Shown in pieces: positions 9-14,735 of a stretch of 64,000 bases of DNA. The DNA comes from Stigmatella ashevillena (lineage in GTDB: Bacteria > Myxococcota > Myxococcia > Myxococcales > Myxococcaceae). The position numbers and the translations under genes were made by a program. Position 1 is the first letter of the stretch; every line of letters starts with the position of its first letter. The notes under the pieces were generated by a model. It was given only the letters and a program-made list of their open reading frames with translations, was not told the origin of the DNA and made no database searches. The stretch lies in assembly GCF_028368975.1 (NCBI RefSeq), contig NZ_JAQNDM010000002.1, positions 5,016,425 to 5,080,424 on the forward strand, read 5' to 3'.

Positions 9-3000
9 TCAACCACACCCTGGAGACTCGTCAAGGGCCAGGTTCTGGCTCAGCGGCAACTCAACGATGAATTCTGTGAAGCGTCCTTCCTCCGTCTCGA
101 ACCGAAGCGTCCCGCCGTGCCCCTGCACGACAATGTCATGGCTGATGGAGAGCCCCAACCCAGTGCCCTGCCCCGGCGGCTTCGTGGTGAAGAATGGCTC
201 GAAAATCCTGTCACGGACCTTCTCAGGGAGTCCGCTGCCATTGTCCCAAACCCGTATCTCCACGTGGCGCCCAAGCGCCCGGGTCGAAATACGCACCCGC
301 GGGGTAACACCGGCCTTGTCCAGCTTGCGCGGGTGGATACTCGCAGCGTAGAGGGCGTTGTTCACCAAATTCAGGATCACCCGGGCGATGCCCTGGGGCA
401 CCACCTCCACCTTTGGGATCGCTGGATCGAAGTCCTTCTCGACAAGCACTTCGCCATCCAGGCTTTTGTTCTGCATCCCTTGGTACGCAAGAGTCACCTG
501 TTGGTCGGCCAGGGCATTGAGATTCGTCGGCATCCGTTCGCCGGCCGCTGTCCGCGAGTGCAGCAACATCCCATTGATGATGTCGTTGGCCCGGCTGCCG
601 TGCTGAACGATTCCCTTCGTATTGCCCTTCAGGCGCTCCAGGAGCTCCGCGACACTTCCCATCACCTCCCCAACCCGCCTCTCAGGATTGACCTGGAGCT
701 CCGCCAGTGTTTCATCCACGATCTCGGAGGAGAGTTCTGCGAAGTTCTTCACAAAGTTGATAGGGTTCTTGATCTCATGAGCGATGCCAGCAGTGAGCTG
801 TCCGAGGGATGACATTTTCTCGGAATGGATCAGGATCTGCTGCGTCTGCTTGAGGTTCTCAAGGGTAACGCTCAGCTCGGAGTTCTTCTTGCGTAACTCC
901 GTGGTGCGCTCCTCGACCTTCTGCTCCAGCCGCTCATAGAGCCGCGCATTCACGATGGAGATGGCCACCTGGGATGAGAGGAGCTGCAGAAACTCCACAC
1001 GGTCAGGCGTGAAGGCGTCTGTGGCCAGGTTGTTCTCAATATAGAGAATCCCCAGCAACTGCTTCTGATGGATGAGCGGCGCGCAGAGTACGGACTTGGG
1101 CTGCCGCAGGGCAATGTTGGCGTCACTCGTGAACAGGCCTTCGCGCGCCGCGTCCCTCAACACCACGCTCTCGCGCGTCCTCGCCACGTAGTTCACGATC
1201 GCGGGAGAAAGTCCCTCACACTGTTCCACTGGCAGGGACTGTTTTCCCCGCACCGCGTGTTGGCCAGACACACCCTCCGCCTCCACCACCCAGCGCTCCC
1301 CTTCCTTCATGAGGAGGAAGCCGCAGCCTGCCCCGGCATTCTGGAGCATGAACTCCATGGCCCGCATGAGCAACTGGCCGAGGACGATCTCGCCGGAGAG
1401 CACCTGCGACATCTGAATAGCCGTTTTGAGGTCCAGTTCCACGGAGCTGGAAATGGCGGCCATCCCCTCACGCCGCGCCTGAGACCCAACCGTGGACAAG
1501 GCCTGGGCCATGAACTGGGGGTACTGGGCCTCCAGTGCCCGTACCTTCGAGTTGGCGCCCCAGGTGAGATAGCCGAACCGGGCATCCTGAAGATACGAAT
1601 TCGCCAGGTTAGCGCGGCCCTGCGCCAGGTAAAACCCCGCTGCGCGCTCACAGGCGATGGCCGCGTCATGCATGTACTCGTTCTTACGCGCCGCCTGAAT
1701 GGCCTCGTCATACAACCGGGCGGCCTCACCAGGGTTGTTCTCCCGCCGGGCAAGCTCCGCTTGGAGGAGCAGGTACTTGTGGCCTGTGTTCTGAGGACTG
1801 TGCAAGGCCCACCGCTTCAGCGTCCGCCGGGCCCGCTCCACTCTTTTGAGGTAGGACCTTCGCGCTTCACCCTGTGCGTCTGGCAACAACGAGAGCGCCG
1901 AGAGCCCGCAGTAGAACGCGTGGAAATGAACAAGGCTGGCGCTGGGTTCAAGCATGGCCTTGTAGAGGGGGCTTTCAAGCCGCGCTCCCAGCTCAAGGAC
2001 TTCCTCGTGCCTACCGAACAGATAGCCCACTTGGAGCTGGAGCAGGTAGTGCAGTCCCCGCTCCATGTCCTCGGTGATGGTCCCGTCCGGTTCCAGTGAG
2101 TGCTCCCGGGAGCCGAGCACCTCGGGAGGCAGCCCTTGGAGCTCTCTCGCCCAGCGTTGCGCGATCAACGCCCCCTCCACCACTTTCACTGCATCGGCGC
2201 GCCGACCAAATTCGAGGTACCGCCGGGCCTCCCCGGCCGTTTCGGAGATGGGCGTATCGAGGAGGCCACAGAGCGTATAAAGCTTGAGGTTCATGCAGTA
2301 CCCCAAGTGCACGAGGTTGCCCGCCTCCCGGCTGCTCTGCATGGCTTCATCCAGCAGTTCCACGTTGTTGCGGATGTGGGCGGCATACCCGTTGAAGTAG
2401 CACGCGAGAATGAAGAGCGTCCTGCACGTCACCGAGGCGTCATCGAACCGGCGGACCAGCGCCAAGGCGATCCTCCCATACTTCACCCCCGCCTTCGGGT
2501 CGCGAAAGGCCGAGCTGCTCAGCAAGCCATAGCAGGCATAGGCGAATGAAGAGGTCTCGGAGTTCCCGTAGCTCAGCGAGATGTCCATCATCTTGAGCAC
2601 GAGCAGTTCCACAAGATTCTGGCGCTTGAGCACGAAGGCGGGAAACCAGAGGCTGCTCAGCAAATGCATCGCCTCTCGCATCTCGGGTGGAACCTGGCCG
2701 GGCCGGTTCAAAAGCTCCTCTGGGCTCTGGTTGCGCAGCTGCCACCGGACACGGGCGAGTTGCCAAAGGACCTCGGGCTGGCCTGGGTTGGCGGACAGTT
2801 GAATCCCCAGAAGTTGCAACGCGAGCACGCTGGTCTCCACCGCCTGCTCATACTTGGTCAGGTGAAGAAATTGCACGGTCCGGGCGATATAGATCCGCAC
2901 CCGATGCAGGGCGGTGCGCTCCTTCTCTAGCAGTAGCTCGAAGCGCCGGTCCGCATCGTTGAAACGGGTCGTGAGGTACTCGCACTGCGCCAGTTCCAGG

Positions 3001-5426
3001 TGGATCGCGTAGGCAAGATCAGGGTGCTGTTCCCAAGCGGCTTCTCCAAGCAGGCGGGCCCCCACCATCAGGTAGTTCCGCGCGGACTCGTAGGCGCTGG
3101 CCGTCTTGGCCTTCCGGCCAGCAGCCAGGTTCAGCTCCGCCACCTGCCTTCTCTCCTCCTCGCTGGCAATCAGTTCCGCCCCCGCATTGAGATGGTTGGC
3201 CACCCCAAAAAGCTGCTCGTCCAGTCGACTCTGCGGCAGGTGCTGGCGCAGGAGCCTTCCAATGGTGAGGTGAACCTGTGCGCGGAGTGGCTCCTCGATC
3301 AGCAGGTAGGCTGCTTGCTGTACCCGGTCATGGAGGAACTCGTAGTGAATGGCAATGTCCTCTTCCCCCTGGTCTTCCTGTGCGGGAGACGGACCCTCCA
3401 GGAGCCTGTAGCTTGAGTCGAGTGGCAAAATCAGCCCTTCCTGGACAGCCTCCCAGAGGTCCTGTGCCGTCTCACGGGATGTGCGCTCATATGCAATGGC
3501 CAGGAGGGCGGAGTCGAACCTGTTACCGATACAGGCTGCCAACCTGAGCGCCGCCTGCGTCTGGGGCAGCAGCTTCTGCAGCTTGCCTACCAAAAGGTCG
3601 ACGACGTTGTCGGTGATCTGAACCGCCCTCAGTTCATTCAAGTCCCATATCCACCCACCCCGCCGTCCTCCCAGCTCACCGTGGGAGTCACGATCGAACC
3701 GCAGCAGTCCGTCCTGGTGAAGCGTCTTGAGGAACTCAAGAACGAAGAAGGGATTGCCATGCGTCTTCTGATGAAGAAGCAGGGCCAGAGACCCCGTCTC
3801 CTCCTGCGTGCAGCTCAGGGCCTCGGCAAGCCATCGGGCGAGTTCCTGAGGGGAAAGCGGCGATAAGGGAAGGGACGTCACCTTCGTCTTGCGCTTCTGC
3901 ACCTCTCCCACCATGTGCATGAGCGGATGCGGCGCATCTACCTCATTATCGCGGTAGGTCCCCAGCAGCAGCAGGTAGCGGATGTCTTCATTCGAGACGA
4001 TGAATTGGAGCAGGTCGAGCGAAGCCAGGTCCGCCCACTGCAGGTCATCCAGGGCAATGACGAGCGGGTGCTCCTGCTTCGCGAAGACTTGGATGAAGCG
4101 TTGGACAGCCTGCCGGAACCGGTTCCGGGCCTCCACGGGTGCCAGCGGTGGCAAAGGCGGCTGGGGACCGATGATGATCACCACCTCGGGGAGGACATCG
4201 GCGAGGACCTCGGCCGAGGCCCCCAGCCCCTCCAAGAGCTGGGCCTTCCAAGAGACCAAGCGGGCTTCGCCCTCGGCCAGCAACTGCCGGATGAGCTGCT
4301 GGAAAGCTTGGAGCAAGGACTTGTAGGGGGGCCCCTCCTTGAACTGCTCGAACTTTCCAGAGATGAAGTAGCCGTACCGGCGGACGACGGGCTTGTGCAG
4401 CTCGTTCATCAGGGATGACTTGCCGGTGCCCGAGTACCCAGAGACAAGAACCAACTCTTTGGCCCCCTCTCCAATCCGCTCGAAGGCGTCCAACAGCGCG
4501 CTCTGCTCGGTGCTCCGGCCATAGAGTCTTGGGGGCATCTGGAGCCGATCCGGGATGTCCTGCTCGCCCGGATGGAAGGCGCCAAGTTCGCCGGCCTGCA
4601 GCCACCGGGCCAAGCATGTCTCGAAATCGGCTCGCAGGCCGTGGGCGCTCTGGTAGCGCTCCTCAGCCGTCTTGGACAGCAGCTTCATCACCAGGCTGGA
4701 GAGCGGAAGCGGAATACCGCTTCTCAGCACATGCGGGGGCACGGGCTGCTGGGCGATGTGGCAGTGCACCAGTTCCATCGGATTGGTGGCCGTAAACGGC
4801 AGCCGCCCCGTCAGCACCTCGTAGAAGGTGACCCCCAGCGAGTAGAAGTCGGTCCGGTAATCCATCGCCCGGTTCATGCGCCCTGTCTGCTCTGGGGACA
4901 TGTAGGCCAGCGTGCCTTCAATCAACGCAGGGGGCGCGGCGGCCTGGCTCTCCCGGGGCAACTGAGAGGCGATGCCCAGACCTGTCATCCGGACGTCCCC
5001 ACTCTTGGGGTGAACCAGGATGTTGCCCGGATGAAGATCCTTGTGGATGACTCCCCGGGAGTGCATCTGCTCCAGAGTCCCCGCGAGCTGGACCGCCAGT
5101 TGGAGAAAAAACTCCAGCGCAATGCTCCCATGCCCAACCCACGCGCTCAGCGGCACGCCGCCGAAGTCCTCCAGGACCAGGACTGGCCGCCCGTGTTGCT
5201 GCACCCATCCGAGGGACTTCACCATCCCTGGCAGATGCAAGTACCGCGCAAGTTGGTACTCATGCTTGAGCAGGGAGATGTCCTGGATGGACGGATACTC
5301 CGCCGACGGCAGCTTGAGGAGCACAGGCTGTCCGTCCGCACTGCGGCGCCCCCGGTACGTGACCGTCCGCGTCCCCATCTGGAACACTTCGGTGACTTCG
5401 TAGCCCATCACGAGCTGCATGTTCAT
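9..5426 (-). CDS. Trifunctional Ser/Thr kinase-like / AAA ATPase / GAF / histidine kinase protein
   Basis: A 1805-residue cytoplasmic signalling protein. Residues ~10-270 form a Hanks-type kinase fold with Lys38, the catalytic-loop motif HKDLHPGN (His128, Asp130, Asn135) and an APE-like SPEQ. An ATPase/TPR-rich MalT-like region follows (Walker A GYSGTGKSS near 329, Walker B ALDDLQWAD). A GAF domain lies at ~1330-1480, and a HisKA/HATPase pair ends the protein (phospho-acceptor His near 1550 in IAHEIKNPINF, G-boxes DNGSG and GTGLGLS). The DFG motif is changed: residues 149-151 read GLG, so the Mg-binding Asp is absent and the kinase part may be inactive, while the histidine kinase looks intact. 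ATG codons at 5426, 5420 and 5408 are all possible starts. It is divergent from the OsmC-like gene. The ligand and output are unknown. Confidence 0.93.
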   Translation of the reverse strand: MNMQLVMGYEVTEVFQMGTRTVTYRGRRSADGQPVLLKLPSAEYPSIQDISLLKHEYQLARYLHLPGMVKSLGWVQQHGRPVLVLEDFGGVPLSAWVGHGSIALEFFLQLAVQLAGTLEQMHSRGVIHKDLHPGNILVHPKSGDVRMTGLGIASQLPRESQAAAPPALIEGTLAYMSPEQTGRMNRAMDYRTDFYSLGVTFYEVLTGRLPFTATNPMELVHCHIAQQPVPPHVLRSGIPLPLSSLVMKLLSKTAEERYQSAHGLRADFETCLARWLQAGELGAFHPGEQDIPDRLQMPPRLYGRSTEQSALLDAFERIGEGAKELVLVSGYSGTGKSSLMNELHKPVVRRYGYFISGKFEQFKEGPPYKSLLQAFQQLIRQLLAEGEARLVSWKAQLLEGLGASAEVLADVLPEVVIIIGPQPPLPPLAPVEARNRFRQAVQRFIQVFAKQEHPLVIALDDLQWADLASLDLLQFIVSNEDIRYLLLLGTYRDNEVDAPHPLMHMVGEVQKRKTKVTSLPLSPLSPQELARWLAEALSCTQEETGSLALLLHQKTHGNPFFVLEFLKTLHQDGLLRFDRDSHGELGGRRGGWIWDLNELRAVQITDNVVDLLVGKLQKLLPQTQAALRLAACIGNRFDSALLAIAYERTSRETAQDLWEAVQEGLILPLDSSYRLLEGPSPAQEDQGEEDIAIHYEFLHDRVQQAAYLLIEEPLRAQVHLTIGRLLRQHLPQSRLDEQLFGVANHLNAGAELIASEEERRQVAELNLAAGRKAKTASAYESARNYLMVGARLLGEAAWEQHPDLAYAIHLELAQCEYLTTRFNDADRRFELLLEKERTALHRVRIYIARTVQFLHLTKYEQAVETSVLALQLLGIQLSANPGQPEVLWQLARVRWQLRNQSPEELLNRPGQVPPEMREAMHLLSSLWFPAFVLKRQNLVELLVLKMMDISLSYGNSETSSFAYACYGLLSSSAFRDPKAGVKYGRIALALVRRFDDASVTCRTLFILACYFNGYAAHIRNNVELLDEAMQSSREAGNLVHLGYCMNLKLYTLCGLLDTPISETAGEARRYLEFGRRADAVKVVEGALIAQRWARELQGLPPEVLGSREHSLEPDGTITEDMERGLHYLLQLQVGYLFGRHEEVLELGARLESPLYKAMLEPSASLVHFHAFYCGLSALSLLPDAQGEARRSYLKRVERARRTLKRWALHSPQNTGHKYLLLQAELARRENNPGEAARLYDEAIQAARKNEYMHDAAIACERAAGFYLAQGRANLANSYLQDARFGYLTWGANSKVRALEAQYPQFMAQALSTVGSQARREGMAAISSSVELDLKTAIQMSQVLSGEIVLGQLLMRAMEFMLQNAGAGCGFLLMKEGERWVVEAEGVSGQHAVRGKQSLPVEQCEGLSPAIVNYVARTRESVVLRDAAREGLFTSDANIALRQPKSVLCAPLIHQKQLLGILYIENNLATDAFTPDRVEFLQLLSSQVAISIVNARLYERLEQKVEERTTELRKKNSELSVTLENLKQTQQILIHSEKMSSLGQLTAGIAHEIKNPINFVKNFAELSSEIVDETLAELQVNPERRVGEVMGSVAELLERLKGNTKGIVQHGSRANDIINGMLLHSRTAAGERMPTNLNALADQQVTLAYQGMQNKSLDGEVLVEKDFDPAIPKVEVVPQGIARVILNLVNNALYAASIHPRKLDKAGVTPRVRISTRALGRHVEIRVWDNGSGLPEKVRDRIFEPFFTTKPPGQGTGLGLSISHDIVVQGHGGTLRFETEEGRFTEFIVELPLSQNLALDESPGCG

Positions 5427-6234: not shown

Positions 6235-8865
6235 TCACGGAATCGTGAGCACGGGCGTGTCGTCCAGCACCAACGGGTCCGTGGCCCCCTCTCCGCCTCC
6301 GAACTTCCACTGCTCGGTGCCCGGCACGAGCGGCCTGTAGCCCCCATCGTAGTCCCAGGTGGTGGCGTACACCTTCACGCCGCTCAGGTCGCTCCGTCCG
6401 GCGAACAGCGCTCCCGGCAGGGTGAAGAAGACGGTGCCCGAGGCCGCATCCACCTCGAGGGCGGCGGCCGGAGACACAGGCGAGCCCTCGTTCGTTGCCG
6501 AGGCGTCGCGCGTCTCGAAGAGCGCGTTGGACCAGCCGTGAGCGCGAATCCGGTAATCCCAGTCCATGCCGGCGGGGACGGAGCGGTTCTGCTGCGGCAT
6601 CACCGTGAGGCCCGTGCGGCCGGGCACATCAATGAAGACCGTGAAGGCCACGTGATCAAACCCGTTCTGCGGGTTCCACTCCGTGGTGATGCGCGGCATC
6701 TGGAAGGCGAGCTTCAACACGTTGCCGGAGCCCAGCAAGGTCACCCGGCGGAAGTCGCCCTGGTGGTTGCTGCCCCAGGAGACATCGGAGGGGTAGTGGT
6801 AGCGGCCCTCGGGACCGGTGTCATCGTTCGCCGGATCCTCGTGGGTCACCAGGGGAACGAAGGTCCGGGACACGCGGAAGGTCAGTGTCTCCGAGAGCAC
6901 CTGAGCACCCTCGGACCACGCCACCAGGGAGTGCTGGACGTTGGGATCCACCATGCTGGCGACGCTGACGAGGGTGCGCCAGGAGCCGTCCTGTCCCACC
7001 GTCACCTCGCTCGCGGAACCCAGCGCTCCATCCACCACCACCTTGAGCGAAGACACGCCCACGGCGGTGCCGGACAGCTCGAAGTCCTGGGACACCGTGC
7101 CGCCGCTGGTGTTGGACAGGGTGATGCGGGCGCTCTCCGGAGGCACCGGGGTCACCTCGCCACTGGGACGGAAGACGCGGACCCCGCGCGCGGGCAGCTT
7201 CATGGACAGCCGCCCCCGGGACCCCACCGAGACATCTCCTGCCCCAGCGCCCAGGCTCGCCAACAAGGTCAGTGATTGGCCCTCGGGCAAGCCAGTGTCC
7301 AGGTTGTCCAGCAGCGTCTCCTCGTCCGAGGTGTTGAAGAGGACGAGGGCCGCCTCCCCACCCTCCTCCATCTTGTAAGCGAACACACCGCCCCGGACCT
7401 CGTTCTGCCGCAACACCGTGGGCACGCCCCGGCGGAAAACGGCGTGCGCCTTGCGCAAGGCGGTCAACTCCCGGATGAAGGCATAGAGCGGCGAAGAGGT
7501 GTCGAAGCGGTCCCGGCCTCCCGACTCGAAGCCTGCCTTGAACATGGCGCTCCGCCGCCCGGTGAAGCCCTGCTCGGTGCCGTAATAGAGGACCGGAATG
7601 CCGGGCACCGTCATCATGAACACGAGCGCCTGCCGCAGGGCCGCCTCCGAGCCCCCTGCCCGGAAGCGGTCCACGTCATGGTTGTCCAGGAAGGTGGGCA
7701 TCAGGTGCGGCCGAGAGAACACCTCCCGGGAATTCATCAGGCGATGCGCCAGCTCGGAGGTGGGATTGCCCCGGGCGAAGACATCCCCCGCGGTGCGGTA
7801 CAGCGGAAACTGGAGCATCCCAGGCAGCAGCGCTTCGCCGGTCACCGGATCATCCATGTACGAGGCCACCTTGCGGGACAGGGTGTCCTCGAACGGCTTG
7901 TCGCTGGCGAAACCCTCTCCAAACGCCAGGAAGCGGTCCTTTCCCAGGCTCCGGGCCACTTCGAGAACGCCCGGGTGCGCCGGGTCCTTCGAGAAGAGGA
8001 AGTCCTTGAAGAGATCCGGAGACACATAGAAGACGGTGTCCACGCGGAAGCCATCCACCCCTGCCTCGCGGAGCCAGAAGGAGTAGCTGTCCTTGAGGGC
8101 GGTCATGACGGCCGGGTGAGAGGTATTGAGATCATCGAGATCCGCGAGTTGCCAGTTCATCTCCTGCTCGGGGTTCTGGTAATCGACGATGGCGGGGGTC
8201 CAGTGAAAGATGCCCGCCTGCCGGTGAGCGGCGTTGGTGGGGTCCCACTGATCGAAGGGGGCCTGGGAAGGGCCGCACGCGGGCTTGGCGCCCGTGTTGA
8301 GGACCACATGCCGGTCCACGTGGTCCGGCTCGTAGGCCACGTACCGGAAGCAGTTGGCCATGTGGTTGAGCACGATGTCCTGGACCAAGTACATGCCGCG
8401 CCCGTGGAGCGCGCGAGACAGGCGCTGGTAGTCCTCGAGCGTGCCCAGGTGCGCATCCATCTGCGTGAAGTTCCGGGCCCAGTAGCCGTGATAACCGCCA
8501 TAGTTGACGAGCGGATCCCACCACTGATTGGCGACAGGAGGCGTCAGCCACACGGTCGTGGCGCCCAGCCCTTGGATGTAATCGAGCTGAGAGAGGAGCC
8601 CCTGGAGGTCGCCACCGCTGTACCGGGCTTCGTCCTGGGGGTTGTACTCCCCCGCACCTTGGTCGTCGTTGCCCGGATCCCCATTGGCGAACCGGTCGGT
8701 CATGACGAAGTAGATGATCTGGTCCCGCCAGTCCGGAGAGGGGACCTGCAACAGGTCCGCGGGAGGGGGCGGCGGCGGATCCTCCTTGGACTTGCATCCA
8801 AGCATGGGCGTGAGGCCGCAGAGCAACGCCAGGAACTTCGCACGGAGAGAGCGCATGAGGACCAT
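6235..8865 (-). CDS. GH13 alpha-amylase-like lipoprotein
   Basis: An 876-aa secreted glycoside hydrolase. The N-terminus is a lipoprotein signal (lipobox MLGC, Cys24) followed by a proline run. The GH13 barrel shows the four conserved regions: DIVLNHMAN (~165), GFRVDTVFY with nucleophile Asp (~270), FGEGF with acid/base Glu (~318) and FLDNHDVDR (~393). After the barrel come a beta-sandwich, an Ig-like region and a C-terminal ~200-aa module resembling the glucodextranase/pullulanase-type carbohydrate-binding end domain (WDYRIRAHGW, TWDYDGGYRPL). It probably cleaves alpha-glucans at the cell surface. It starts 6 nt after the upstream kinase stop with no visible ribosome site, so it is likely translationally coupled to the kinase. 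Fine specificity (amylase, cyclomaltodextrinase, glucodextranase) is not resolved. Confidence 0.92.
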   Translation of the reverse strand: MVLMRSLRAKFLALLCGLTPMLGCKSKEDPPPPPPADLLQVPSPDWRDQIIYFVMTDRFANGDPGNDDQGAGEYNPQDEARYSGGDLQGLLSQLDYIQGLGATTVWLTPPVANQWWDPLVNYGGYHGYWARNFTQMDAHLGTLEDYQRLSRALHGRGMYLVQDIVLNHMANCFRYVAYEPDHVDRHVVLNTGAKPACGPSQAPFDQWDPTNAAHRQAGIFHWTPAIVDYQNPEQEMNWQLADLDDLNTSHPAVMTALKDSYSFWLREAGVDGFRVDTVFYVSPDLFKDFLFSKDPAHPGVLEVARSLGKDRFLAFGEGFASDKPFEDTLSRKVASYMDDPVTGEALLPGMLQFPLYRTAGDVFARGNPTSELAHRLMNSREVFSRPHLMPTFLDNHDVDRFRAGGSEAALRQALVFMMTVPGIPVLYYGTEQGFTGRRSAMFKAGFESGGRDRFDTSSPLYAFIRELTALRKAHAVFRRGVPTVLRQNEVRGGVFAYKMEEGGEAALVLFNTSDEETLLDNLDTGLPEGQSLTLLASLGAGAGDVSVGSRGRLSMKLPARGVRVFRPSGEVTPVPPESARITLSNTSGGTVSQDFELSGTAVGVSSLKVVVDGALGSASEVTVGQDGSWRTLVSVASMVDPNVQHSLVAWSEGAQVLSETLTFRVSRTFVPLVTHEDPANDDTGPEGRYHYPSDVSWGSNHQGDFRRVTLLGSGNVLKLAFQMPRITTEWNPQNGFDHVAFTVFIDVPGRTGLTVMPQQNRSVPAGMDWDYRIRAHGWSNALFETRDASATNEGSPVSPAAALEVDAASGTVFFTLPGALFAGRSDLSGVKVYATTWDYDGGYRPLVPGTEQWKFGGGEGATDPLVLDDTPVLTIP

Positions 8866-8871
8866 GAGGGT

Positions 8872-10395
8872 TTAGGGATGCTCGGAAGTCGGAAAGCGAT
8901 GGGCAGGAAAGGACGGCAGGTAACAAGCCCCCTTCCAGTCATAAGCCTCCTCTTTACACGGCTGATTGGCGTCGCGAAGGGCGTACCAGCACCCTCCTCG
9001 GATCTCGACCTCGCCGTTCCGGTTGCACGGCGGCCGACGCTGCCCCAGAAAGGGCCGCTCGGGAATCGGCAGGCCCAGGCCGGGCCTCAGGCGGGAGGCC
9101 TCCATGGGGGCCGCGAATGCCACAGGGGCCGTCGCCGCACTGTCCCCCATCGCCGTCACCCCTCCGTCCCGGCTCTCTCCATCCCACTCCACCCACACCC
9201 CCTCCGACACCTCCGGCCTCCACTGCCTCGTCATCAGCCCGCTCACCATCGGCACCAACAGCAGCAGCACCACCACCGCCGCCACACTTCCCACCCACGC
9301 CCCATCCAGCGCCTGCGGCCACCCGCTCGCCTCCACCGGCCTCTCCCCCTCCTCGAACAGCGCCACAGGCGCTGGCGTCGGCGCGGCGCGATGCACCTCC
9401 CACACACTCCCCTCGCTCCTCCTCGCCCACTCCGGCACCCCCGACTCCTTCACCCCCAACGCTCGGTCCGCTCCAGGCCCCGCACTCTGCGCCGCTTCCT
9501 CCAGCGCCTGCGCCGCTCCCCTCGCACTTCCCTTGAACCGCTCCATCGCCGACACCGCGCACAACTGCAGCACCAGCGCGTCCAACTCCGGACTCACCCT
9601 CGGGTTGAGCGCACTCGGCGGCCTCGGCCCGGGCCCCTCCTGCCTCCACACCTCCGCCCCTTCCCCCTCGGGCTCCGTCGGCGGTGGGTACTCCCCCGTC
9701 ACCATCCGGTACGCCGTGATTCCCAACGCGAACAAGTCATCGCACGCGCTCGCCTCGTACCTCGCCGTCGGGTGCCTCCAGAACAGCTCCTGGAACGCCC
9801 ACGCCTCGGGACTCCGGTACGCGGGCGTCCCCGGCGGCAGTACCTGCCACGTCAACGTCGCCGCTCCTCGGTAGTCCCCTGCCCCATAGTCCATCAGGTA
9901 CGGGTGCCCCTCCCCCCCCTGCACCAACACGTTGTCCCCCTTCACGTCTCGGTGCACACCTCCCGCCTCGTGCGTGTCCCCCAACGCCTGCGCCACTCGC
10001 GCCAGCACCCTCAACGCCTGTCTCGAGGACGCCTGGTGGCTCACCGTCCATTCGTACAGGGGCATCCCCTCCACCCACTGCATCACAAGGTACGGGAACA
10101 CTCCTCGGCGGTGCTGCCACAAACCCTGCCCGTGCAGCACCGGCACATACGCCGAACGGATTCGCGTCAGCAGCGACGCCTCCCGCTCAAAGCGCTCATC
10201 CCCCACGTGCAGCGCCAACTTCAGCGCGTACGCTCCCTCCTCACCCTCCTTCTCTACTCGGTACACCGTCCCGGATGTGCCTCGCCCTCTCCACCCCGTC
10301 ACTCGCCATGGGCCTACCTTCGTCCCTATCGGCAGCGAGGCTGGATCCGGCTCCATCTCCGGCAGCGTCCTGTTCATGGGCATCCCTCTGCCCAT
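8872..10395 (-). CDS. Ser/Thr protein kinase, tandem copy 1 (downstream)
   Basis: A 507-aa Hanks-type membrane kinase. Gly loop GRGTSGTVY, Lys in YALKLAL, catalytic loop HRDVKGDN, Mg loop DYG (DFG variant), TPAYRSPEA as APE. A single membrane span at ~370-391 (VAAVVVLLLLVPMVSGL) leaves a ~100-aa extracytoplasmic tail with four cysteines (PPC, GGCWY, PCKEE, GACY). It is almost identical to the next kinase (10478-12016) except for the last ~60 residues, where 17 of 60 differ, and a 5-residue WEGEG deletion. Starts at ATG 10395, 10383 or 10377 are possible; the last has AGAGGG 6 nt upstream. It is followed after 6 nt by the amylase-like gene. The tail is the likely sensor; its ligand is unknown. 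Confidence 0.93.
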   Translation of the reverse strand: MGRGMPMNRTLPEMEPDPASLPIGTKVGPWRVTGWRGRGTSGTVYRVEKEGEEGAYALKLALHVGDERFEREASLLTRIRSAYVPVLHGQGLWQHRRGVFPYLVMQWVEGMPLYEWTVSHQASSRQALRVLARVAQALGDTHEAGGVHRDVKGDNVLVQGGEGHPYLMDYGAGDYRGAATLTWQVLPPGTPAYRSPEAWAFQELFWRHPTARYEASACDDLFALGITAYRMVTGEYPPPTEPEGEGAEVWRQEGPGPRPPSALNPRVSPELDALVLQLCAVSAMERFKGSARGAAQALEEAAQSAGPGADRALGVKESGVPEWARRSEGSVWEVHRAAPTPAPVALFEEGERPVEASGWPQALDGAWVGSVAAVVVLLLLVPMVSGLMTRQWRPEVSEGVWVEWDGESRDGGVTAMGDSAATAPVAFAAPMEASRLRPGLGLPIPERPFLGQRRPPCNRNGEVEIRGGCWYALRDANQPCKEEAYDWKGACYLPSFPAHRFPTSEHP

Positions 10396-10443
10396 ACACC
10401 CTACTCCATGGGTGGACCTCGTGCACCCAGCCCATCAAGTCCC
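9080..10443. repeat. Tandem direct repeat, copy 1 (kinase body plus leader)
   Basis: Nearly identical to 10686-12064 with about ten scattered mismatches and one 15-bp indel (absent here). It spans the kinase coding region except the last 208 nt, and 48 bp upstream of the first start codon. Outside the repeat the two copies diverge sharply at both ends. Confidence 0.95.
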
Positions 10444-10477
10444 GTCGACCATTCCCGTCTCGGGCCCTGGGAGGAGA

Positions 10478-12016
10478 TCAAGGCTGCCCGGAGGTCGGCG
10501 TGCGATGGGCATGGAAGGAGGGCACGTAACAGGCCCCCTTCCAATCGTAGGCGTCCTCCTTGCACGGAGACCTGACACGAGCCAGTTCGTACCAACACCC
10601 GCCTCGGATCTCCGCCTCGCCACTCCGGTAACACGGCGGTTTGCGCTGACCTGGAAAGGGCATCTCGGGAATGGGAAGCCCCAAGCCGGGCCTCAGGCGG
10701 GAGGCCTCCATGGGGGCCGCGAATGCCACAGGGGCCGTCGCCGCACTGTCCCCCATCGCCGTCACCCCTCCGTCCCGGCTCTCTCCATCCCACTCCACCC
10801 ACACCCCCTCCGACACCTCCGGCCTCCACTGCCTCGTCATCAGCCCGCTCACCATCGGCACCAACAGCAGCAGCACCACCACCGCCGCCACACTTCCCAC
10901 CCACGCCCCATCCAGCGCCTGCGGCCACCCGCTCGCCTCCACCGGCCTCTCCCCCTCCCACCCCTCCCCCTCCTCGAACAACACCACAGGCGCTGGCGTC
11001 GGCGCGGCGCGATGCACCTCCCACACACTCCCCTCGCTCCTCCTCGCCCACTCCGGCACCCCCGACTCCTTCACCCCCAACGCTCGGTCCGCTCCAGGCC
11101 CCGCACTCTGCGCCGCTTCCTCCAACGCCTGCGCCGCCCCCCTCGCACTTCCCTTGAACCGCTCCATCGCCGACACCGCGCACAACTGCAGCACCAGCGC
11201 GTCCAACTCCGGACTCACCCTCGGGTTGAGCGCACTCGGCGGCCTCGGCCCGGGCCCCTCCTGCCTCCACACCTCCGCACCCTCCCCCTCCGGCTCCGTC
11301 GGCGGTGGGTACTCCCCCGTCACCATCCGGTACGCCGTGATTCCCAACGCGAACAAGTCATCGCACGCGCTCGCCTCGTACCTCGCCGTCGGGTGCCTCC
11401 AGAACAGCTCCTGGAACGCCCACGCCTCGGGACTCCGGTACGCGGGCGTCCCCGGCGGCAGTACCTGCCACGTCAACGTCGCCGCTCCTCGGTAGTCCCC
11501 TGCCCCATAGTCCATCAGGTACGGGTGCCCCTCCCCCCCCTGCACCAACACGTTGTCCCCCTTCACGTCTCGGTGCACACCTCCCGCCTCGTGCGTGTCC
11601 CCCAACGCCTGCGCCACTCGCGCCAGCACCCTCAACGCCTGTCTCGAGGACGCCTGGTGGCTCACCGTCCATTCGTACAGGGGCATCCCCTCCACCCACT
11701 GCATCACAAGGTACGGGAACACTCCTCGGCGGTGCTGCCACAAACCCTGCCCGTGCAGCACCGGCACATACGCCGAACGGATTCGCGTCAGCAGCGACGC
11801 CTCCCGCTCAAAGCGCTCATCCCCCACGTGCAGCGCCAACTTCAGCGCGTACGCTCCCTCCTCACCCTCCTTCTCTACTCGGTACACCGTCCCGGATGTG
11901 CCTCGCCCTCTCCACCCCGTCACTCGCCATGGGCCTACCTTCGTCCCTATCGGCAGCGAGGCTGGATCCGGCTCCATCTCCGGCAGCGTCCTGTTCATGG
12001 GCATCCCTCTGCCCAT
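10478..12016 (-). CDS. Ser/Thr protein kinase, tandem copy 2 (upstream)
   Basis: A 512-aa paralogue of the kinase at 8872-10395 with the same layout: glycine loop, HRDVKGDN, DYG, one membrane span at ~375-396 and a cysteine-containing tail. Over about 445 residues I find one substitution and the extra WEGEG. The tail (PPCYRSGEAEIRGGCWYEL...) is clearly different, which suggests the two kinases sense different things through the same catalytic machinery. ATG 12016 has GGAG 8 nt upstream; ATG 11998 has AGAGGG at a good distance too. It lies 64 nt downstream of the MMPL gene and 82 nt upstream of kinase copy 1, so one transcript is plausible. Confidence 0.93.
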   Translation of the reverse strand: MGRGMPMNRTLPEMEPDPASLPIGTKVGPWRVTGWRGRGTSGTVYRVEKEGEEGAYALKLALHVGDERFEREASLLTRIRSAYVPVLHGQGLWQHRRGVFPYLVMQWVEGMPLYEWTVSHQASSRQALRVLARVAQALGDTHEAGGVHRDVKGDNVLVQGGEGHPYLMDYGAGDYRGAATLTWQVLPPGTPAYRSPEAWAFQELFWRHPTARYEASACDDLFALGITAYRMVTGEYPPPTEPEGEGAEVWRQEGPGPRPPSALNPRVSPELDALVLQLCAVSAMERFKGSARGAAQALEEAAQSAGPGADRALGVKESGVPEWARRSEGSVWEVHRAAPTPAPVVLFEEGEGWEGERPVEASGWPQALDGAWVGSVAAVVVLLLLVPMVSGLMTRQWRPEVSEGVWVEWDGESRDGGVTAMGDSAATAPVAFAAPMEASRLRPGLGLPIPEMPFPGQRKPPCYRSGEAEIRGGCWYELARVRSPCKEDAYDWKGACYVPSFHAHRTPTSGQP

Positions 12017-12064
12017 ACACCCTACTCCATGGGTGGACCTCGTGCACCCAGCCCATCAAGTCCC
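10686..12064. repeat. Tandem direct repeat, copy 2 (kinase body plus leader)
   Basis: Partner of 9080-10443. It carries a 15-bp insertion relative to copy 1 within the juxtamembrane linker, which shifts the offset between the copies from 1606 to 1621. The tail segments outside the repeat (8872-9079 and 10478-10685) have equal length but are diverged. Confidence 0.95.
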
Positions 12065-12080: not shown

Positions 12081-14564
12081 CTACCCGCGGCCGGCGGCGC
12101 TCTCTTCGGCGGGCGTGGCGGCCTCATCCACCACGTGGTGCTTGCGCCGCCAGCGCTCCACCAGCAGCAGGAACGCCGGGAAGCCCACCAGGACGATGAG
12201 GATGTTCACCCCGAAGCCCAGGTTCGCCAGGGTGCCGATGGAGTTGAGCCCCGGGTGCCGTGCGAGGATGAGGGCCAGGAAGCCGATGGCGCTCGTCAGC
12301 AGACCGCCAGTGATAGCGCGGCCCGTCTCCGCGTACACGGTGATGAAATCGCTGTCCGGCTCGCCCAGGCGCTGCACCAGGTGCACGCCGGCGTCCACCG
12401 TGGTGCCCACCAGCACCGGCAGGACCACCAAGTTCAGGTAGTTGAACTGCAAGTCCAGCAGCGCCATCAGCCCCACCAGCCCCGCCACGGACACCAACGT
12501 GGGCATCATGCAGATGAGCGCCGTGCGCAGTCGCCCCAGCGTCAACCACATGGCCAGGAGCACCGACAGCACCGCGGCCCCCAGAATCTCCGGCCCGTCA
12601 TGCGCCACCATGTCCAGGATGTCCGCGAGGATGAGCGACTCGCCCGTGGCCGAGACCTTGGAGCCATCCGGCATCTGCATGCCCCGGACTTCCTTGGCGA
12701 AGCGCCGCGTCCCCGCCCCGTCCGCCAGGTTCACCGCCGCGTACACGAGCACCACGCCGCCCGAGTCCCCATTCATTCCCTCGAATTGCCGGCGCACCGC
12801 CTCGGGCAGCGTCTCGCGCTGGAAGGGCTTGGCACTCGACATCTTCAGGGCGCGCTCCACGTTGGGCCGCACATCCTCGGGCAACCGCTGCGGGTCCAGC
12901 CGCTCCAACCGCTGGTGGATGGCCTGGAGAATGACCTGCTTCTCCTGCTGACGCTCGGGCACCAGATCCGCCACCGAGCCCACGAAGTCGATGGTGGAGT
13001 TCTTGCCCTGCTTCTCCTTGCGCGCCTGGAGCTCGCGCACCACCTCGCGCTCCATCGCCTGGGTGTCGGTGAGCACCACCACCGGTGACTGCGAGTAGCC
13101 GAGGATCTTGTCCATGCGCCGGTCCAACCGCACCGACGGCAGCGTCACGTCATCCAGCTTCGTCGAGTCGTAGTTGAAGCTGACGCGCCACGCTTGGCTG
13201 ATGAGCGCCACCATGCCCACGCCCACGACGATGGCCACCGTGCGGTAGTGCTGGGGCAGCCAGCGCGCCAGCAGCGCCAGCGGTCCAGCCGAGGCCTCGT
13301 GCACACTGGGCTTCCACCCCAAGCGCGAGGCCAGTCCCAGCATCGCCGGGAGGATGAGCACGTACGAGACGATGCTCAGAACCATGCCGATCGCCGCGAT
13401 GACACCGAACTCCCGGAAGGCGATGAACTCGGAGATGGAGAGGCTCAGGAAGGTGAGCGCGGCCACTACCGCCGCGATGAGCGCCGAGAAGCCCGTGTGG
13501 CGGAAGGACTCGCGCACGGCGGGCAGCGACTCCTGCCCTTCGGCGCGCAGCGTGGCATAGCGCCCGAGCAGGTGGATGCCGTGCTCCACGCCCAGGCCGC
13601 CCAGCACCGCGCCCAGGAAGCCGGTGAGCAGGTTCACCTGTCCGTAGACGGCGCCCACGAAGCCGTAGGTCCACGAGAGGCTGGCCACCACGGGCGTCAT
13701 CGTGAAGGCCACGCTCCACGCGCTGCGGAAGTGGAAGGCCAGGTACAGGATGAGCAGCACCAGCGCGATGCCGGAGGCCCGCCCCAAATCGCCCGTGATG
13801 ATCTTCTGCTGGTCGATCTTCTTCTTGTAGTTACCCGTGATGGCCGTGGTGAAGCCGGGCCCGTACTTGGACAGGTCCTGCTGGGCCAGGAACTCCTCCA
13901 CCTGTCCCACCACCTTCTTGGCGTAGTTCAGGTCCGCCGAGCTGCCCCTGGGCTTGAGCAGCAACACCACCATCCGCTCCTGGGGATCCAGGTAGTACAG
14001 GTCCCCCTCGCCCGACAGGCGCTGGCTGGCGCCGCCCGTGTACTTCTGCTCGATGTCGGAGAAGTCGATGGTGGGGGGCGGATCCTCGTCCAGCCGGACA
14101 AAGAGCGGGTTGGCCTGCTGCTTCTCCCAGAGAATGCGCGCGTCGATGCGCTCCTGGATCATCTTCAGGTCCGGCACATCCACGTAATAGAGGGCGTGCT
14201 CCTCGAAGAAGGGGCGGGGCCGCTGATAGTTGACGTAGCGGACCTCGGAGAGCTGCGCGAGCCGGGGCGCCATGTCGTCGGCGAAGCGCTTGAGGGCCTC
14301 GGGCTCCGCGCCCAACCCCGCCACCACCACGTTGCCCTGGCCGCCGAAGCGCTGGCGCAGCTTCTCCAGGTCCTGCACGCTGGAGAAGGAGCGGGGCAGC
14401 AGCGCCGTCAGGTCCGCGTTGAGCGTCAGCTTGCCCGTGAAGTAGGAGCCCACTGCCACCAGCACCGCGGCCAGCAGCAGGGCCTGCCAGGGCTTGCGGT
14501 GGTTCCGCGCGGCGAGGGCGCCAATCGCCGTCTCGAACCGCTCACTCAGCCGCTTGTCACTCAT
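12081..14564 (-). CDS. MMPL/RND-superfamily transporter
   Basis: An 827-aa inner-membrane RND protein of the MMPL/HpnN type, which move lipids or other hydrophobic compounds using proton motive force. It has an N-terminal span (WQALLLAAVLVAVGSYF), a large periplasmic loop, five clustered spans (IALVLLILYLAFHF, GFLGAVLGGLGVEHGIHLLG, ALTFLSLSISEFIAF), a second loop and a second five-span block (VVLPVLVGTTVDAGVHL). GVEHGIHLL and TTVDAGVHL are the usual TM4/TM10 motifs. I chose ATG 14564 (MSDKRLSERF) over upstream codons because homologous sequence starts there. Its paralogue is at 18499-21009. It is divergent from the phosphatase-superfamily gene. The cargo is unknown. Confidence 0.9.
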   Translation of the reverse strand: MSDKRLSERFETAIGALAARNHRKPWQALLLAAVLVAVGSYFTGKLTLNADLTALLPRSFSSVQDLEKLRQRFGGQGNVVVAGLGAEPEALKRFADDMAPRLAQLSEVRYVNYQRPRPFFEEHALYYVDVPDLKMIQERIDARILWEKQQANPLFVRLDEDPPPTIDFSDIEQKYTGGASQRLSGEGDLYYLDPQERMVVLLLKPRGSSADLNYAKKVVGQVEEFLAQQDLSKYGPGFTTAITGNYKKKIDQQKIITGDLGRASGIALVLLILYLAFHFRSAWSVAFTMTPVVASLSWTYGFVGAVYGQVNLLTGFLGAVLGGLGVEHGIHLLGRYATLRAEGQESLPAVRESFRHTGFSALIAAVVAALTFLSLSISEFIAFREFGVIAAIGMVLSIVSYVLILPAMLGLASRLGWKPSVHEASAGPLALLARWLPQHYRTVAIVVGVGMVALISQAWRVSFNYDSTKLDDVTLPSVRLDRRMDKILGYSQSPVVVLTDTQAMEREVVRELQARKEKQGKNSTIDFVGSVADLVPERQQEKQVILQAIHQRLERLDPQRLPEDVRPNVERALKMSSAKPFQRETLPEAVRRQFEGMNGDSGGVVLVYAAVNLADGAGTRRFAKEVRGMQMPDGSKVSATGESLILADILDMVAHDGPEILGAAVLSVLLAMWLTLGRLRTALICMMPTLVSVAGLVGLMALLDLQFNYLNLVVLPVLVGTTVDAGVHLVQRLGEPDSDFITVYAETGRAITGGLLTSAIGFLALILARHPGLNSIGTLANLGFGVNILIVLVGFPAFLLLVERWRRKHHVVDEAATPAEESAAGRG

Positions 14565-14735
14565 GAAGTCCGCTCTTTTGTTCAAAAATGTGCAGTGAAA
14601 GCCCCCCAACATGTCCAGGCGCCCCGCGGGAGTCAACGAAACCCACACGGAGAGCAAGGAGGGGGCGGAGCCCTTGGCGGGCCGTCGTCGTCACCCTGAC
14701 ATATCCTCCAACGGCGTGCTTTGTTCCGTGCCCAC

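Follow-up and report, generated by a model that had tools for sequence, protein, structure and literature searches.

Two neighbouring protein kinase genes of Stigmatella ashevillena, here termed A and B, lie in a stretch of 64,000 nucleotides (contig NZ_JAQNDM010000002.1, positions 5,016,425 to 5,080,424; this whole stretch is the window); very probably, they represent an old tandem pair with bodies homogenised by recurrent intragenomic recombination and tails descending separately, with the same recombination at work in other local clusters of related kinases as well. Both genes encode a Ser/Thr protein kinase domain, a linker, one transmembrane (TM) helix, a stalk and a cysteine tail, in this order; they are arranged head to tail on the minus strand between an MMPL/RND-like gene, which adjoins the upstream copy B, and an alpha-amylase-like gene, which adjoins the downstream copy A. 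The window's genome (G000; 10.95 Mb, 2 contigs) was compared at this locus with five relatives in the genus, one genome per species: the sister species G037 (a single contig of 10,260,756 bp), G036, G038, G039 and G041. A six-gene alignment contained A and B, their counterparts A37 and B37 in G037, and the kinase genes K36 of G036 and K38 of G038; sites were termed positional where A equals A37 and B equals B37, and within-genome where A equals B and A37 equals B37. The trees for body and tail were compared by the approximately unbiased (AU) test, and the pair was delimited as follows:

8872..10395, minus strand: kinase A, 507 aa; open reading frame with a Pkinase match (PF00069, E 7e-21); orthologue A37 in G037, tail 97% identical.
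10478..12016, minus strand: kinase B, 512 aa; open reading frame with a Pkinase match (PF00069, E 7e-21); orthologue B37 in G037, tail 98% identical.
9079..10442, minus strand: homogenised tract of A (nt -47 to 1317), comprising, after a leader of 47 nt, the kinase domain, linker, TM helix and stalk; B differs from it by 7 substitutions over 1364 bp; 109 within-genome and 0 positional sites against G037.
10685..12063, minus strand: homogenised tract of B, the same parts as in A plus 15 extra bp; from the A/B alignment and the site patterns against G037.
10959..10973, minus strand: 15 bp inserted in the juxtamembrane linker of B as compared with A, from the alignment; the region is also unconverted in G037.
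8872..9078, minus strand: A-type tail, a divergent C-terminal segment with four Cys (PPC..GGCW..QPC..GACY) that are invariant in paralogues; supported by 31 positional sites, a single within-genome site and the AU test.
10478..10684, minus strand: B-type tail, of the same tail family with other residues, its orthologue found only in G037; from site patterns, AU test and a search for B-type tails.
10423..10442, minus strand: leader element GACTTGATGGGCTGGGTGCA of A, 20 nt, marking the 5' boundary of the homogenised tract; kept in all six copies of the four species.
12044..12063, minus strand: leader element GACTTGATGGGCTGGGTGCA of B, 20 nt; likewise kept in all six copies of the four species.

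The global alignment of A and B from nt -47 to 1317 of A contains 7 substitutions (nt 726, 735, 738, 879, 892, 1034 and 1036) and one 15-bp indel; beyond this tract, upstream of -47 and past the stop codon, the flanks of the two genes are unrelated. The last 207 coding nucleotides, in contrast, contain 55 differences (73% DNA identity), and 17 of the 60 final residues differ. A preliminary description of the window had reported a near-identical body of about 1.36 kb with a 15-bp indel and a sharply different end of 208 nt with 17 of 60 changed residues; these dimensions were recovered, with seven substitutions in place of about ten. Synonymous differences number 5 in approximately 245 kinase sites versus approximately 24 in approximately 47 tail sites (Fisher p 4.6e-17), a contrast that is due neither to chance nor to protein-level selection. 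Of the seven body substitutions, five are confined to a single copy and two fall in the linker, the pattern expected from mutation after the last homogenisation.

In G037, the same tandem kinase pair occupies the same place, next to a membrane-protein gene that is 96% identical to the one flanking B, and the histories of body and tail can be read separately. Among the body sites (-47 to 1317) at which the four copies fall into two pairs, 109 are within-genome and none is positional; the best tree in the AU test is ((A,B),(A37,B37)), ahead by 226 log-likelihood units, so that in body sequence A and B are mutual nearest relatives, as are A37 and B37. The tails reverse this pattern, with 31 positional sites and 1 within-genome site, and their best trees join A with A37 and B with B37 (ahead by 62 log-likelihood units). 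Synonymous divergence (dS; Nei-Gojobori method with Jukes-Cantor correction, approximately 47 synonymous sites per pair in the tail) agrees: in the body it is 0.019 between A and B and about 0.01-0.015 between A37 and B37, versus 0.24-0.26 between the species (A-A37 0.26); in the tail it is 0.98 between A and B, versus 0.23 for A-A37 and 0.47 for B-B37. The flanking MMPL-like gene has a dS of 0.19 between G000 and G037. Nonsynonymous divergence (dN) of the tails is 0.19 between A and B, versus 0.017 (A) and 0.013 (B) between the species, where dN/dS is approximately 0.03-0.07. Thus the body homogenisation is separate in the lineages of the two species, and the tails are old, separately inherited since before the species split, and each under purifying selection. 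Three hallmarks of concerted evolution by gene conversion are present: paralogues are closer than orthologues over part of the gene (body dS, AU test), the adjacent segment has a conflicting, orthologue-like history (tail, 31 versus 1 sites), and homogenisation occurred independently after the split in G000 and in G037. Since body dS within each pair is low relative to the divergence between species, each lineage homogenised its own pair late, in approximately the most recent tenth of the interval that separates the species. The preliminary description had proposed recurrent gene conversion of the body with tails kept apart, and had predicted that bodies would cluster by genome and tails by position; site patterns, AU tests and dS values support the proposal and bear out the prediction.

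The near identity of the A and B bodies could also reflect a young tandem duplication, with one tail overwritten by another paralogue or evolving fast under positive selection. Both tails, however, have position-matched orthologues at normal distance (dS 0.23 for A-A37, against 0.19 for the flanking MMPL-like gene), the orthologues of the A tail extend to G036 and G038, and the synonymous divergence of 0.98 between the tails is not attributable to protein selection; a fresh duplication, which the preliminary description had doubted on the ground that it would equalise the tails, is therefore highly improbable. Near-identical tandem repeats are also a classic assembly trap, and the same description had asked for assembly error to be ruled out; the independent, single-contig genome of G037 is arranged in the same way, with a body sequence specific to its own species and with orthologous tails, and the probability of an assembly collapse or chimera is negligible.

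Two neighbouring genes served as synteny anchors for the other relatives:

12081..14657, minus strand: MMPL/RND-like membrane-protein gene (assigned by eye), anchor upstream of B; adjacent and 96% identical in G037, 91-92% identical in G036 and G038.
6235..8865, minus strand: alpha-amylase-like lipoprotein gene, anchor downstream of A; adjacent and 87-88% identical in G036 and G038.

G036 and G038 carry one kinase gene between these anchors; its 5' flank is B-like and its tail is of the A type. In G039 and G041 the flanking genes are approximately 11 and approximately 24 kb apart, and no kinase of the A/B kind was found in the part examined. Tail dS between the single genes K36/K38 and A is 0.57-0.64, versus 1.0-1.34 for B; the clade of A and K tails has support of 92/95, the alternative tree retains an AU p of 0.10, and no B-type tail was found in G036 or G038. 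The B tail thus seems to predate the split from G036 and G038, and on that basis the single gene of these species is best read as a pair that collapsed by recombination between the bodies. That the single-copy state is ancestral is less likely, given that tail dS and tree (AU p 0.10) weigh against it.

The pair belongs to a large kinase family. In G000, about 60 genes share its architecture of a membrane kinase with a four-cysteine C-terminal tail; the tail motif is PGQxxPPC...GGCW...PPC...GxCYxP, with Q, C, C, W, C, C and P invariant in 50 aligned tails, and the kinase part of A and B is at most about 66-67% identical to those of the other G000 members found. Family lists were built from one query, so that members may be missed, and dS was calculated for all pairs of 58 genes in G000 (1653 pairs) and 56 genes in G037 (1540 pairs). 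Kinase dS falls below 0.5 in 7 of the 1653 G000 pairs; all seven lie within 25 kb, and in all seven tail dS exceeds kinase dS. With spacings of 1.6, 5.8, 7.1, 7.4, 9.1, 11.5 and 20.6 kb, kinase dS rises from 0.022 through 0.061, 0.069, 0.193, 0.242 and 0.263 to 0.290, whereas tail dS shows no trend with distance (rho 0.04). The five local pairs of G037, spaced by 1.6, 3.7, 4.8, 6.0 and 10.2 kb, have kinase dS values of 0.009, 0.045, 0.065, 0.070 and 0.283, and every local cluster of close relatives in G000 and G037 combines low kinase dS with high tail dS. Windowed dS stays at zero over runs inside the kinase domain and climbs close to the linker or tail (for example L061/L064 and L172/L171).

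Orthologous clusters repeat the conflict between body and tail. In cluster 2 (L055/L062 versus L099/L101), kinase sites group by genome, 118 versus 3, and tails by position, 7 versus 5; in another cluster the counts are 50 versus 1 and 14 versus 2. In a third, the L108 and L110 tails of G038 and G036 are orthologous (dS 0.27, dN 0.007), and their kinase domains are no closer mutually than to other copies. A faster synonymous rate in the tail as sole cause was rejected by 34 dispersed orthologue pairs outside the G000 clusters, in which the tail/kinase dS ratio has a median of 1.6 (interquartile range 1.2-2.0) and dN is similar in both parts (tail 0.053, kinase 0.060); local paralogue pairs have ratios of 2.2-43 versus the control value of 1.6 (Mann-Whitney p 4e-6), and that of A/B is 39. 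Shuffling of tails throughout the family was unsupported, as kinase and tail best-hit pairs between G000 and G037 agree in 37 of 40 cases and the distances of the two parts correlate (Mantel r 0.66). L061 and L064 (G000:C2:9258680-9260170 and 9264919-9266409), 6 kb apart, lack synonymous divergence over codons 80-240 alone and have diverged in N-terminus, linker and tail; this conversion tract lies inside the kinase domain. L059 (G000:C2:5778766-5779818), next to the L055/L062 cluster, has no recognisable Cys tail, is apparently truncated or frameshifted, and may be a donor or a relic.

As caveats, several points weigh against recurrent conversion as outlined here. The distance trend derives from 7 and 5 pairs, three of them in one cluster, and duplication age could contribute to it; tail dS is based on about 47 synonymous sites per pair; the tails of cluster 2 are weakly positional (7 versus 5). 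The sensor role of the tail is deduced from topology and conservation, with a predicted fold that lacks a match in PDB, and at the adjacent A and B, sequence alone cannot separate gene conversion from repeated unequal crossing-over. Cycles of such crossing-over, with growth to three copies followed by contraction, could have homogenised the bodies in place of non-reciprocal gene conversion: A and B stand in direct tandem, the single gene of G036 and G038 (B-like 5' flank, A-type tail) is the product expected of a deletion between bodies, and tail phylogeny and dS tentatively place the B tail before the G036/G038 split (p 0.10 for the alternative). Copy number, however, is two in both G000 and G037, which in itself is simply consistent with non-reciprocal transfer; clusters with several kb between copies share the signature, although unequal exchange would delete or duplicate the intervening DNA; and in G037 an unconverted linker (nt 1021-1110) is flanked by converted blocks, as from patchy conversion. 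On account of the constant copy number, the patchy G037 tracts and the clusters with copies several kb apart, gene conversion is favoured, and unequal crossing-over as the homogenising process is unlikely.

Body conversion is compatible with entirely passive tails, in which heterology blocked conversion after divergence and selection for distinct sensors played no part. Conversion tracts require long near-identity, the tails are 73% identical in DNA, and the tract edges coincide with the drop in similarity; against this, each tail evolves under purifying selection (dN/dS about 0.03-0.07 in the species comparison), most A/B differences are retained in all A-type copies (A, A37, K36 and K38) or in both B-type copies, and the tails of local paralogue pairs stay apart even though conservation among orthologues is as high in the tail as in the kinase. 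Passive tails are a possible explanation, if the less probable one. Selection for distinct sensors, as suggested in the preliminary description, gains from the purifying selection and from the retention of each tail's own residues across species, yet a passive heterology barrier would leave the same tails behind; the purifying selection speaks for distinct functions of the two tails, not for how conversion stops there.

Under the favoured reading, homologous recombination within the genome, in its simplest form gene conversion, recurrently transfers the leader, kinase domain, TM helix and stalk from one gene of the pair to the other, whereas the four-cysteine tails have followed separate lines of descent since before the two species diverged. 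With one TM helix (in both proteins, a hydrophobic segment at about residues 366-388) behind an N-terminal kinase, the kinase would be cytoplasmic and the Cys tail would lie outside the cytoplasmic membrane; topology and conservation suggest that the tail is a sensor or partner-binding part. In an AlphaFold model, the region past the TM helix consists of a disordered stalk and a small four-stranded beta tail (predicted local distance difference test score about 90), a fold without a match among the solved structures in PDB. Their common leader makes equal expression of A and B probable; a pair of receptors alike in leader, kinase and stalk but different in tail could respond to two signals or partners and act on the same phosphorylation targets, and conversion would keep their shared parts matched. 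The other local clusters of four-Cys-tail kinases would undergo the same process, more strongly at closer spacing. More speculatively, the whole family may form a modular receptor library of near-identical bodies per cluster with occasional distant body transplants, in which input evolves apart from output and selection retains distinct tails. The candidate transplant is the G037 pair L136 (C1:1241110-1242552) and L138 (C1, about 9425.4-9427.7 kb), which lie about 2 Mb apart on the circle; their kinase dS is 0.08 to about codon 320, followed by unrelated tails. For the L136 tail, the closest matches (66-69%) are genes of G036, G038 and G000, and since those of G036 and G038 carry another body type, L136/L138 has the appearance of a body transplant.

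There are precedents for domain-limited conversion between paralogues. The nearest parallel to A/B is the mammalian TLR1/TLR6 pair, tandem receptor paralogues whose TM segment and most of whose intracellular signalling domain are homogenised by gene conversion, separately in each species, with another, extracellular part remaining orthologue-like (PMC2077338). TLR1 and TLR6, however, are animal immune receptors and a single gene pair, whereas A and B are bacterial kinases with a leader that is also homogenised, a short C-terminal tail that is kept, and several family clusters. The archaeal mtrA-1/mtrA-2 genes are prokaryotic tandem paralogues with an MtrA domain homogenised by long-lasting gene conversion and a differing membrane part; they encode a metabolic enzyme subunit, and their distinct part comes from gene fusion, not from retained divergence of homologous tails (PMC4632066). 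In bacterial RF1/RF2, conversion is confined to the domain of common function and the specificity domains are left apart, but these are ancient paralogues with two single events that were not local, recent or recurrent (PMC4530459). Long-lasting concerted evolution in prokaryotes, in which recurrent conversion makes paralogues closer than orthologues, was described for 26 genes, most in important pathways; the word 'kinase' is absent from the main text (PMC6053082). In myxobacteria, local duplication has expanded the eukaryotic-like kinases into large families whose paralogues lie close together (Perez et al., 2008, summarised in PMC8538405); that review describes duplication, to which A and B add conversion and different histories of bodies and tails. 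In the open-access literature, with subscription papers mostly outside the search, no report was found of family-wide, distance-dependent, domain-limited conversion in bacterial receptor kinases, nor, in the open-access literature, of myxobacterial kinase conversion or of a conflict between kinase body and tail histories.

Myxobacteria have unusually many eukaryotic-like kinases, and A and B bear on the question of how paralogues keep or avoid cross-talk: bodies repeatedly made identical, with distinct and conserved tails, predict several inputs and one shared output per cluster, and illustrate how a bacterium can maintain many sensors on signalling engines that are almost the same. A further warning is that duplications in such families are misdated by trees built on the kinase domain, in which copies close together seem young in spite of their old tails.

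A and B qualify as Hanks-type Ser/Thr protein kinases by a PF00069 match above cut-off and the motifs YALK and HRDVKGDN, with DYG replacing DFG. Near residue 170, DYG (YLMDYGAGD) is present in A, B and both G037 copies, and DFG in G036 and G038; the change from DFG to DYG is now common to both copies in both species. A and B are not members of the PASTA-type PknB/Stk1 kinases (NF033483, 91 bits versus a cut-off of 450, the kinase domain alone being matched) or of the MAD6 kinases of the MADS anti-phage system (NF047741, 100 bits versus a cut-off of 460). The named-genome search returned a metagenome bin relative only, and the plasmid search gave no match.

As a family-wide promoter motif, GACTTGATGGGCTGGGTGCA was rejected; its G000 occurrences are those in front of A and B, one further site with 1 mismatch (G000:C2:2302633) and one with 3 mismatches. 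G036 has a second copy of the amylase-like gene (G036:C12:192101-194734, 67% identical), beside which no kinase of the A/B kind was found. Elsewhere in the window, positions 9-5426 (minus strand) encode an 1805-aa hybrid protein with, by eye, an N-terminal kinase-like domain, an AAA-like ATPase region, and a GAF-like and histidine-kinase-like C-terminus.

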